A stretch of 64,000 nucleotides of DNA. It comes from Actinopolymorpha cephalotaxi. GTDB lineage: Bacteria > Actinomycetota > Actinomycetes > Propionibacteriales > Actinopolymorphaceae. Each line of letters begins with the position of its first letter. Position 1 is the first letter of the stretch. Of the stretch, positions 50,507 to 54,300 are shown piece by piece. The position numbers and the translations under genes are program-made. The notes below the pieces were generated by a model that saw only the letters and a list, made by a program, of their open reading frames with translations, made no database searches and was not told the DNA's origin. The stretch lies in the NCBI RefSeq assembly GCF_013408535.1, contig NZ_JACBZA010000001.1, positions 2,998,850 to 3,062,849 on the forward strand, written 5' to 3'.

Positions 50507-51753
50507 TGACTCCTTCCCTGTGGCCCCGCCGGGGCAGCCGTTCCGGATCCGGCCCCGACTCCCCCGGTCAGCTCGGCGCCGACGGCACCGGCGACCGCGA
50601 CGGCACCGGTCCCGAGGTGCTGGACTTCGGCCCGCCCGGACGTGGACGTGACGACGCGTTCGGACCCGACCGTGCGGCCGGCCGCGGCACCGGTGGCGCC
50701 GGGCCGGGCGCGCCGCCGGCGGAGGTGCTCCGGGTGGAGAACCTCGCGGTGAGCTTCCCCACCGAGGACGGAACGGTCCGCGCCGTCCGCGGAGCCTCCT
50801 ACGTCGTGCACGAACGCGAGGTCCTCGGCATCGTCGGCGAGTCCGGCTCGGGCAAGTCGGTGTCCTCGATGGCGGTGATGGGCCTGCTCCCCCGGACGGC
50901 GCGGATCAGCGGGCGGATCCTCTTCCGCGGCGAGGACATCCTCACCATGTCGCGCCGCCGCCAGCGCGGCCTGCGCGGACTGCGGATCGGCATGGTCTTC
51001 CAAGACCCGATGACCGCGCTGAACCCCGTCCACACGATCGGCGACCAGCTCGCCGAGGCGGTGCTGTCCCACCAGCTCGTCGACCGCAAGGTCGCGCTCA
51101 CCAGGGCCGAGGAGATGCTCGACCTGGTGGGCATCCCGCAGGCCCGGGCGCGGCTGCGCAGCTACCCGCACGAGTTCTCCGGCGGAATGCGCCAGCGGGT
51201 GATGATCGCGATGGCGGTGATCAACGGCCCGGACGTCATCATCGCCGACGAACCGACGACGGCGCTGGACGTCACCGTGCAGGCGCAGATCCTGGAGAAG
51301 TTGCTGGAGGTGAAGGACGCGGTCAACGCCGCCATCGTGCTCATCACCCACGACCTCGGCGTGATCGCCGGGATCGCGCACCGGGTGCTGGTGATGTACG
51401 CCGGCCGCCCGGTGGAGATCGGGGGCACCGATGCGGTCTTCTACCGCACCCGGATGCCTTACACGGCAGGGTTGCTGGGGTCCATTCCCGCGCTGGAGAG
51501 CGCCGGCACGGACCGGCTGCGCCCGATCGGCGGCTTTCCCCCGTCGCTGATCGACATGCCCGCCGGCTGCCCGTTCCGGCCGCGGTGCCCGCTGGCCGAC
51601 GACGCCTGCCGGCAGGCCGAGCCCGACCTGCTGAGCACCGGCGACGAGGACGATCCCGACCACGTGGCCGCCTGCCACCACTGGGACGCGCTCGCCGCGG
51701 TGCCCGACCCGACGGAGTTCTTCCGGACCGAGAGCGAGGGGAAGCGGCCATGA
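50506..51753 (+). CDS. ABC importer ATPase (OppD type)
   Basis: 415 residues. An N-terminal extension of about 70 Gly/Arg/Pro-rich residues precedes the ABC domain. Walker A is VGESGSGKS, the Q-loop [12 protein letters not shown], the signature [15 protein letters not shown], Walker [14 protein letters not shown] and the H-loop [13 protein letters not shown]. The C-terminal Opp motif [14 protein letters not shown] is present. Coupled by TGATG to the permease and by ATGA to the second ATPase. Confidence 0.94.
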
Positions 51754-52802
51754 CACCCCCAGCGAGCGGCACCGCGACCGCCGGGAACACCTCACCCGCC
51801 CCGGCGGCACCGGCAACCCACCTGCTCGAGGTCACCGACCTGGTGAAGACGTTCCCCGTTCGCGGCAAGGGCCTGATGCGCCGGGTCGTAGGCCAGGTCC
51901 AGGCGGTCAGCGGAGTGTCCCTGCACGTGGACCCGGGCGAGACCCTCGGCGTGGTCGGTGAGTCCGGCTGCGGCAAGTCGACCACCGGCCGGGCGATCCT
52001 GCAGCTGCACACCCCGACCAGCGGGTCGGTGCGGTTCTCCGGCAAGGAGCTGACGACGCTGGGCCGGCGGGCGATGCAGGGAGTACGCCGGGACCTGCAG
52101 ATCGTCTTCCAGGACCCCTACGCCTCGCTCAACCCCAAGATGCCGGTCAACGACATCATCGCCGAGCCCCTGAAGGTGCACGGGCGCTGGGGATCGACCG
52201 GCAAGGCGCGGGTGGCCGAGCTGCTCCGGCTGGTGGGCCTGAACGCCGAGCACGGCAACCGCTACCCGCACGAGTTCTCCGGCGGACAGCGCCAGCGGGT
52301 CGGGATCGCCCGGGCGCTGGCGCTGGAGCCGCGGCTGCTCGTCCTGGACGAACCCGTCTCCGCCCTCGACGTGTCCGTGCAGGCCGGCGTGGTCAACCTG
52401 CTGGAGGACCTGCAGGACACCCTCGGGGTCGCGTACATCTTCATCGCCCACGACCTGTCGGTGATCCGGCACATCTCCGACCGGGTGGCGGTGATGTACC
52501 TCGGCAAGGTCGTCGAGACCGGCAGCCGCGACGACGTGTACGAACACCCGGCGCACCCCTACACCCAGGCGCTGCTGTCGGCCGCGCCGATGGCCAACCC
52601 GAAGCGGGAACGCGAACGCCGGCGGATCATCCTCACCGGCGACGTGCCGAGCCCGGTCGACCCGCCGAGCGGGTGCAGGTTCCGCACCCGCTGCTGGAAG
52701 GCGCAGGACATCTGCGCGCGGGAGGAGCCGCAGCTCGTCGACCGCGGGCAGGGACACCCGTCGGCCTGCCACTTCGCCGACGTCGACCGCCGCGTGGTGT
52801 GA
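51750..52802 (+). CDS. ABC importer ATPase (OppF type)
   Basis: 350 residues. ABC landmarks: Walker [15 protein letters not shown]-loop [16 protein letters not shown], signature [15 protein letters not shown], Walker [14 protein letters not shown] and H-loop [12 protein letters not shown]. The C-terminal extension has the [14 protein letters not shown] Cys motif. Last gene of the second importer operon. Twenty bases after its stop the first of several palindromes begins. Confidence 0.94.
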
Positions 52803-52821
52803 CGCCTGGCGGGCGCTCGGA

Positions 52822-52869
52822 TTCTTCCGCGGAAGAAAATGCCAACCGGATTCTTCCGCGGAAGAATCC
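52822..52869. repeat. Pair of spacerless palindromes (TTCTTCCG/CGGAAGAA)
   Basis: A 16-base perfect palindrome occupies 52822-52837. The same 16 bases recur at 52851-52866, exactly 29 bp further on, and there extend to a 22-base perfect palindrome (52848-52869). With no loop and no T-tract they look more like protein-binding sites than like terminators. They lie between the convergent importer and FAD-oxidoreductase genes. Confidence 0.75.
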
Positions 52870-52899
52870 CCCGCGTCAGGTCGTACGTCGGAGCGCGCC

Positions 52900-53028
52900 G
52901 TGAAGCGTGAAGACCTGAGGTGGGCCTGGCATCCGGCCGTCTTCACACTTCACCAAGCAGCGCCGCGCCAAACCCGCAGCGTGAAAACTCCGGGGGGTCC
53001 TGGCCACCTGGAGCTTTCACACTCCACC
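52900..53028. repeat. Duplicated 50-bp hairpin element in a convergent intergenic region
   Basis: Copy A (52905-52954) and copy B (52979-53028) are both 50 bp and match at 35 positions by direct comparison. Both begin GCGTGAA and end TTCACACTTCACC or TTCACACTCCACC. Each folds on itself: arms 52900-52914 with 52939-52953 (14 of 15 paired), and 52981-52991 with 53010-53020 (10 of 11). They may be bidirectional terminators or members of a small dispersed repeat family. Confidence 0.65.
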
Positions 53029-53058
53029 GGGCGCTCCGGCGTCGGCCTCGCCTGCCCG

Positions 53059-54300
53059 TTACGCGTAGACCGCGTCCAGGTCCACGTCCCCGTCGGCGAG
53101 CTTGCCCGGATCGACCTCACGCCCGGACCGGATCAGCGCCTGGATGGCGTCCTGAACGTCCCAGACGTTGACGTTCATGCCCGCGACGACCCGGCCCTTG
53201 CGCAGCCAGAACGCCACGAACTCCCGTCCGTCCAGGTCACCGCGCACCACCACGTCGTCGTACCCGTCCGGCCCGACGTCCCCGGAGTACTCCATGCCCA
53301 GGTCGTACTGGTCGCTGAAGAAGAACGGCACCGCGTCGTACGCCGCGTCGGCGCCCAGCATCGCCCGGCCCGCGGCGGCACCGCCGTCCTGGGCGTTGGC
53401 CCAGTGCTCCACGTGCAGCCGGCGGCCGAACGTCGGTGAGTGCCACCGCGCGACGTCGCCCGCGGCGTAGACGTCCGGGTCGGAGGTACGCAGCCGCTCG
53501 TCGGTGAGCACTCCCTTGTCGACGTCCAGCCCGGCGGCCTCGGCCAGCTCGACGTCCGGGGCCACGCCGACGCCGACGATCACCGCGTCCGCGGCCAGCT
53601 CCTCGCCGGCTCCGGTGACCACGCCGGTCACCTTCCCGCCGTCGCCGCTGATCTGCTCGACGGAGGCGCCGAACCGGAACTCCACCCCGTGGTCGCGGTG
53701 CAGCCGCGCGAACACCTCGCTCATCTGCGATCCCAGCACGGTGTAGAGCGGCCCCGGCTGCGGCTCGACCACCACCACCTCCGCGCCGTGGTGGCGCGCC
53801 GCGGCCGCGGTCTCCAGGCCGATCCAGCCGGCGCCGACGACCACGACCCGGTCCGCGGCGGCCAGGGTCGCCTTCAGCGTGAGGCAGTCGGTGAGGGTCC
53901 GCAGGTAGTGCACGCCGGCCAGGTCGGCACCGGGAACGTTCAGCCGGCGCACCACCGAGCCGGTCGCCAGCAGCGCCTTGTCGTAGTGGAGCGTCTCACC
54001 GTCGGCCAGCACCACCTCGTGCGCGGACGGGTCCAGCCGCCGCACGGCGACACCGAGGCGGAGCTCGATCCGCTGCTCGTCGTACCACGCCTGGTCGTGG
54101 GTGATCACCGTCACCGGATCGTCGGCGTCGAGGAGGACGCCCTTGGACAGCGGCGGGCGTTCGTACGGAAGCTCGGACTCGCGGGCGACGAGCACGACCC
54201 GGCCGGAGAAACCTTCCGACCGCAACGCCTCCACCGCCTTCGCCGCGGCCAGTCCCCCGCCGATCACGACGTAGGTCTGCTGTCCGGTCTGCTCAGCCAT
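53059..54300 (-). CDS. FAD/NAD(P)H-dependent oxidoreductase (ferredoxin/rubredoxin reductase type)
   Basis: 413 residues with the two-dinucleotide-binding-domain flavoprotein fold. The FAD-binding strand is YVVIGGGLAAAKAVEALR, the NAD(P)H-binding loop is VVVVGAGWIGLETAAAA, and the second FAD contact is DVYAAGDVARW. LPYERPPLSKGVLL is typical of ferredoxin reductases of oxygenase systems. A reductase C-terminal domain closes the protein. It would pass electrons to a small iron-sulfur protein, but no ferredoxin gene is adjacent. Single gene, convergent with the second importer operon. Confidence 0.9.
   Translation of the reverse strand: MAEQTGQQTYVVIGGGLAAAKAVEALRSEGFSGRVVLVARESELPYERPPLSKGVLLDADDPVTVITHDQAWYDEQRIELRLGVAVRRLDPSAHEVVLADGETLHYDKALLATGSVVRRLNVPGADLAGVHYLRTLTDCLTLKATLAAADRVVVVGAGWIGLETAAAARHHGAEVVVVEPQPGPLYTVLGSQMSEVFARLHRDHGVEFRFGASVEQISGDGGKVTGVVTGAGEELAADAVIVGVGVAPDVELAEAAGLDVDKGVLTDERLRTSDPDVYAAGDVARWHSPTFGRRLHVEHWANAQDGGAAAGRAMLGADAAYDAVPFFFSDQYDLGMEYSGDVGPDGYDDVVVRGDLDGREFVAFWLRKGRVVAGMNVNVWDVQDAIQALIRSGREVDPGKLADGDVDLDAVYA

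Follow-up and report, generated by a model that had tools for sequence, protein, structure and literature searches.

Two copies of a 16-letter palindrome, TTCTTCCGCGGAAGAA (hereafter P), stand between convergent genes in an Actinopolymorpha genome, where they belong to a family that recurs letter for letter, is confined to one genus among the 57 genomes searched and lies preferentially at gene ends. P is spacerless and fully symmetric. With not quite even confidence, we favour the view that P is a REP-like, sequence-constrained gene-end palindrome recognised by a putative factor, DNA being the preferred level of recognition.

A palindrome family within one genus

The window (the whole 64,000-nucleotide stretch analysed) belongs to a genome that forms a single 6.86-Mb contig (G000) and was compared with relatives of the same genus (G001 to G005); the genus relatives include Actinopolymorpha rutila DSM 18448. 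The initial annotation had described two identical palindromes 29 bp apart between convergent genes, the second within a 22-bp perfect palindrome, and both descriptions hold (Table 1). The repeat is slightly longer than was stated, a 20-bp direct repeat, CGGATTCTTCCGCGGAAGAA, at 52818-52837 and 52847-52866. At up to two mismatches, two matches to P were observed in the window against a chance expectation of 0.01, and none of 100 shuffles gave two. An A-A pair at 52903-53024, formed by a second element described below, was missing from the annotation, so that the order of elements in the gap (52,803-53,058) is P, P, A, A. Folded as RNA, none of 200 shuffles did as well as this gap on either strand (z of -7.1 and -6.5). 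A search of the window with Rfam 15 at gathering thresholds returned two tRNAs only and no RNA-family match for P or A.

Table 1. Coordinates of P, A and associated features. Positions are those of the window unless a locus (L) is named.
Feature	Position	Strand	Remark
P core copy 1 (TTCTTCCGCGGAAGAA)	52822..52837	.	Starts 20 nt past the last base of the + strand gene
P core copy 2 (TTCTTCCGCGGAAGAA)	52851..52866	.	Exact match; 29 bp start to start from copy 1
22-bp perfect palindrome GGATTCTTCCGCGGAAGAATCC	52848..52869	.	Encloses P copy 2; equals the family consensus
P doublet	52819..52869	.	19-nt arms fully complementary, 13-nt gap; single long hairpin, -33.7 kcal/mol as RNA
A element copy 1	52903..52950	.	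Window gap
A element copy 2	52977..53024	.	Window gap; 74 bp after copy 1
Oligopeptide/dipeptide ABC transporter ATPase gene (ABC_tran, oligo_HPY)	51750..52802	+	Upstream neighbour; ends at 52802
Pyridine nucleotide-disulphide oxidoreductase gene, reductase C-terminal domain	53059..54300	-	Convergent neighbour; ends at 53059
P-bearing DUF222-HNH gene	L073:2801-4885	+	P encodes DSSAEES
P-bearing DUF222-HNH gene	L178 about 8483-6270	-	P encodes DSSAEES; within the 160-kb block
Third palindrome sites	L010:1123-1170, L077:2730-2777, L080:2513-2560, L172:12284-12333		

The window's genome holds 62 exact copies of P, rising only to 68 at up to one mismatch and 70 at up to two (six copies with one and two with two), whereas a reversed-pattern control gave 0, 0 and 1. 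In G001 to G005, exact copies number 22, 7, 2, 21 and 4, and copies at up to two mismatches 39, 21, 10, 33 and 11; P thus comes close to all-or-none in the window's genome, with partial decay in the other five. None of 51 further genomes of the family and order contained an exact copy. The count across the genome and its relatives that the annotation had proposed therefore shows P to be neither unique nor unconserved, but a genus-wide family with a nearly invariant core. The few exact copies in G003 and G005 lack the GGA...TCC flanks.

Matches beyond the genus were considered individually. The metagenome-assembled genome (MAG) YP3.bin99 (G057; GC 0.47) was set aside as a second home of P because most of its copies belong to tandem arrays: on L030, L040, L050, L051, L063 and L066 it carries 6 exact copies and 26 with one mismatch, 23 of the latter reading TTCTTCCGCGGGAGAA, many in arrays of 47-48 bp period with TTCTTCCGCGGGAGAA. 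These repeats are a separate family that contains a nearly identical palindrome. Exact matches on Geodermatophilaceae MAG contigs (L060:7174, L043:3214 and L048:772) lie inside ORFs, one of them sarcosine-oxidase-like, and are possibly due to chance. A viral origin was rejected after a 20-mer gave no matches in IMG/VR, and a literature search with the P 16-mer found no paper containing it.

Placement at gene ends and association with A

With a simple codon-usage gene caller, 50 P sites fell into 27 convergent, 14 tandem and 8 divergent gaps, with 1 inside a weak ORF; slightly different gene calls for 61 sites gave 29 convergent, 22 tandem and 10 divergent. Duplicate rows were left out of these counts (L004, with the sites of L003; L009, with those of L008; and L015 or L092, which share theirs), and L186:15, at a stretch edge, was left out of the 61-site flank analysis. 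Background frequencies were taken from a 743-kb sample comprising a 519-kb contig end, chosen to recover 12 P sites otherwise missing, a 160-kb block picked for its many P copies, and the window. Of its 24 sites, one lies inside a called gene (the copy at 6614306). Convergent gaps make up 15% of intergenic bases but hold 10 of the 23 intergenic sites (p = 0.001). Within 60 nt of a gene 3' end we found 11 of the 23, vs 16% for random placement. Since the caller overlooked DUF222 genes, three of the 8 divergent sites in the 50-site count (L073) and all three in the 743-kb count really lie in or beside such genes.

This placement bears on the reading of P as an ordinary intrinsic terminator, as palindromes between convergent genes commonly are, or as a chance repeat. 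Intrinsic terminators consist of a hairpin followed by a T-tract, which P lacks: a scan for stem plus T-run sites found none in 52600-53200, and 51 oriented P sites showed no T enrichment downstream beyond the first base, as the annotation had maintained for the window's two copies. Together with 62 identical cores against none for the reversed control, this already contradicts both versions, and we regard them as hardly tenable. The annotation's wording 'rather than termination' would be too firm, because the copies prefer convergent gaps and the stretch that follows stop codons.

The annotation had also proposed a fixed spacing of about three helical turns and cooperative binding. Neither proposal found support, as the 18 spacings below 500 bp between neighbouring exact copies range from 29 to 325 bp, take 17 distinct values and, by inspection, spread in helical phase over the turn. 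Ten of them measure 228 to 325 bp, and in eight of these (hand count) an A element stands between both P copies. At L003:1517-1766, a P pair 266 bp apart without A encloses two near-copies of another unit, gccccgggacatgatc...accggggctcttcg.

The symmetry of P is such that a dimeric protein, as the annotation had suggested, could bind. Sites of Noc, ParB, MatP and SlmA are palindromes of 14-20 bp present in tens of copies, similar to P in length class, symmetry and copy number. P could accordingly be read as an operator, bound either by an ordinary transcription regulator or by one of these chromosome-organising types of protein, and a mild excess of P loci near parB would fit: taking parB, at around 6.04 Mb, as the origin, 19 of 44 loci lie in the nearest chromosome quarter (p = 0.006). 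The overall positional bias is weak, however, the nearer half containing 27 of the 44 (p = 0.09), and P differs from such sites in its variable paired stems and in favouring gene 3' ends over promoters. A Noc-like ParB paralogue for a non-parS site was rejected as the binder because the window's genome gave a single ParB_N match (A. rutila has three). No nucleoid-associated or silencing protein of the kind that the annotation had considered was identified. We consider an operator function very improbable.

A is a 48-bp interrupted palindrome, largely limited to the genus and found mostly as a tandem pair with a 73-74 bp period. A covariance model trained on copies near P matched in five of six Actinopolymorpha genomes and in none of 91 others from the order at E <= 1e-5 under stricter filters; at E <= 0.01, it gave seven strand matches in the genome of another genus of the family. 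In 762 kb of the window's genome we counted 16 A loci, 14 of them pairs with the 73-74 bp period (periods of 75 and 77 bp occur elsewhere), leaving uncounted three weak matches (L170:3154, L193:4682 and L172:12284). Among gaps of at least 100 bp, 12 held both elements, 2 P alone, 2 A alone and 173 neither (p = 2.7e-15), a test that is partly circular because the model was trained near P and A itself lengthens gaps. Of the A loci listed for the window's genome, 23 of 31 (hand count) have an exact P within 400 bp, whereas among the matches listed for G002 and G005, A and P copies do not lie close together. Four A loci of the 762 kb without exact P had no P-like site at up to three mismatches within 450 bp. 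Covariation within the A palindrome did not exceed shuffles, so that A is conserved as sequence and not shown as structure. A third palindrome, AGCTGGGAAGACTT...AAGTCTTCCCAGCT, A-like in form, recurs in similar gaps and in relatives (Table 1).

Core and stem through the genus

To follow P between species we compared 22 orthologous pairs from 18 loci, picked for showing a P-like site in each of the two species and not all independent (L089 enters three times, L008 and L013 twice, with one copy taken per doublet). The core was exact in 16 pairs and carried one or two mismatches in 6, whereas bases 3-20 on either side were 41% and 43% identical in an anchored, ungapped comparison, which understates flank similarity since gaps would raise the figure. 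Around these loci, DNA matches longer than 200 bp mostly show 83-95% identity. In the window's gap, A. rutila keeps a single P, within an imperfect longer palindrome, despite the apparent decay of the ABC ATPase gene alongside it, whose counterpart is only partly present (L106:1353-2000). This seemingly decayed orthologue adjoins a DnaG primase gene and not a transporter operon.

Seventeen loci lack an exact P in A. rutila. At 11 of them, one or more of three relatives show a P-like site (up to two mismatches) at the same locus, and at the remaining 6 none of the three does; L002 was left out because it matched in one relative only, whose L130 has no P-like site. Copy structure also varies: L089 carries P-x-P with A-A between in the window's genome and a single P in three relatives, L090 is a doublet in the window's genome and A. 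rutila and a single P in G001, and L001 is a doublet in G002 and single in the window's genome.

Such differences are expected if P is a selfish, non-autonomous mobile repeat that lands, with or without A-A, in gene-end gaps or hairpins, its exact copies reflecting recent or continuing copying by an unnamed enzyme, perhaps with a DUF222-HNH link. The exact copy numbers across the genus, the doublets and singles at L089, L090 and L001, and the 6 loci without a P-like site all point this way, as do two DUF222-HNH (13E12-type) genes of the window's genome that each contain one exact P inside the ORF and two upstream. On three contigs from other actinobacteria (L041, L065 and L071), P likewise falls within DUF222 ORFs, and known REPs, in the part of PMC3733652 available, commonly occur in pairs, may be intragenic and may be embedded in longer palindromes. 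However, for cores to be exact at one boundary in several species whose flanks differ, either repeated insertion at that place or constraint would be required. RAYT-type mobilisation was rejected, as Y1_Tnp (PF01797) had no match in the window's genome at E <= 0.001, with a profile that was positive in 5 of 14 controls. A MITE-type comparison found P-x-P against single P across species in gaps too diverged for the junctions of gains and losses to be read; diverging this fast, they offer the selfish reading neither a clean empty site nor a target duplication. Copy-number differences and the extra copies in the DUF222-HNH genes keep this reading alive, and we judge it unlikely. DUF222-HNH proteins as general partners of P were rejected, the two P-bearing loci being absent among the DUF222 matches listed for the window's genome.

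Pairing extends beyond the core. At 61 sites, the flanks add a mean of 3.8 bp vs 2.3 bp when shuffled (maximum 2.7 in 2,000 shuffles), and 13 of the 61 extend by at least 6 bp (shuffled mean 1.6, maximum 7 in 2,000 shuffles). Between orthologues of the 22 pairs, 19 compensatory double changes were counted vs 8.3 in shuffles, only one of 2,000 of which reached as high. At L008, the perfect extension in G001 is 18 bp long and has little in common with the stem of the window's genome. Very long perfect palindromes surround P at L210:4636 (G005:C77:46636; 13 bp per side) and L131:2166 (G001; 18 bp per side); the former P lies 37 nt past a Cpn60 chaperonin gene.

These stems are what would be expected if P acted as an RNA-level hairpin with an invariant tip, transcribed from either side, that ends or protects mRNA without a U-tract through an RNA-binding protein or RNase. 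The gene-end preference agrees with this reading, as do the paired changes and the single 19-bp hairpin that the window's doublet forms, and stem-loops in general favour convergent gaps and the first 50 bp after stops, according to the accessible portion of PMC1590033. By contrast, mispairs in transcript sense showed no clear excess of G.U over A.C (35 and 31 at 51 sites; 16 and 14 at the 22 tandem sites), no T enrichment followed the motif past its first base, shuffling the right flanks cost P sites a mean of only 1.7 kcal/mol in folding energy, and a hairpin that matters for its structure alone could do without an invariant core. Overall, a hairpin-forming palindrome is supported, as judged from sequence, but a constraint at the RNA level is not, and the balance of mispairs would count toward DNA over RNA as the level at which P acts. 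We hold the RNA hairpin to be a doubtful but serious alternative. Template switching in replication can create compensatory stems without selection, as described in the part of PMC8794818 available.

Known repeat classes and a possible boundary function

REPs, as described in the accessible text of PMC3733652, are short palindromes that stand mainly between genes, close to 3' ends where gaps are tandem or convergent, and often in pairs, some of them intragenic and some within longer palindromes; its CGTC class is said there to have no dedicated transposase. P comes closest to the GTAG/CGTC REPs, being a short interspersed palindromic repeat that is mainly intergenic and shares their pairing, occasional intragenic copies and preference for 3' ends in convergent and tandem gaps (the 10 and 11 of 23 sites given above). 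It differs in being fully symmetric without a spacer, in varying very little within the window's genome and in its restriction to one genus among the genomes searched. An alignment of 50 of the 62 sites showed no unpaired GTAG or CGTC end tag, and the RAYT (Y1 transposase) expected for GTAG REPs has no match in the genome. P therefore works like a REP but is not classed as one, failing the two marks of tag and Y1 transposase. A literature search found no paper joining REP, Actinobacteria and RAYT, and, among the papers listed on Actinopolymorpha, none on repeats by title.

In the BIME mosaics of Escherichia coli, palindromic units share a gap with another palindromic motif. P with A-A in one gap resembles that arrangement, differing in the sequences of P and A and in the period that A-A mostly keeps; P and A are not known to bind gyrase, IHF or Pol I. 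Neisseria DNA uptake sequences (DUS) occur in many hundreds of copies. When inverted, they share with P an exact short core, genus specificity and stem-loop formation, whereas P has only 62 copies and is palindromic in itself. DUS stem-loops are mentioned in the part of PMC1590033 available.

Interspersed gene-end palindromes usually vary between copies, and the best-known kind is attributed to RAYT transposases; P is unlike these in its letter-perfect core, in keeping its place in related species and in a genome without a Y1 transposase match. An exact core at the same gene boundary while the surroundings differ calls for recognition of that sequence, and the gene-end preference in both orientations, combined with a symmetric site, suggests a bidirectional boundary function. 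We propose that a trans-acting factor recognises the P core just downstream of stop codons, which would place the 16 bp under sequence constraint. As P reads the same from both sides, it could act for either of two converging genes, on its own where the gap is short and, in longer gaps, usually joined by an A-A pair. Its most likely job would be to mark or insulate the ends of transcription units, by blocking or ending read-through or by handling torsional stress between convergent genes, the palindrome working as duplex DNA or as an extruded hairpin.

Several findings count against P as a boundary signal, among them the 6 loci at which three relatives show no P-like site. Exact copies vary from 62 to 2 between genomes, as expected of a spreading repeat, which a housekeeping signal need not do; 175 of the 189 convergent or tandem gaps measuring 100 bp or more contain no P; and some copies are remote from gene ends or fall within genes (the two DUF222 genes and 6614306). 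In a more specific version, a boundary system that is genus-specific and factor-dependent would use P as its site: a dedicated protein on the invariant palindrome, duplex or extruded, directly after stop codons would stop or insulate transcription bidirectionally, and the fixed-period A-A pair would form a second module in longer gaps. This is in our view a speculative possibility. If true, it would give bacteria an equivalent of road-block terminators. Strongly T-tailed terminators are often missing from high-GC actinomycetes, so that a marked gene-end element bears on how convergent genes stay apart. Within the genus, exact copies range from 62 of 70 to 7 of 21, a natural series in which one can ask what keeps a repeat exact, be it a binding factor, continuing copying or template switching.

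An autoregulated binder gene beside P was sought by reading the genes at six loci with 'divergent' sites and rejected, none of these genes being taken up as the binder. The genes that stand out beside these sites are a response regulator (L074) and the DUF222-HNH gene of L073.
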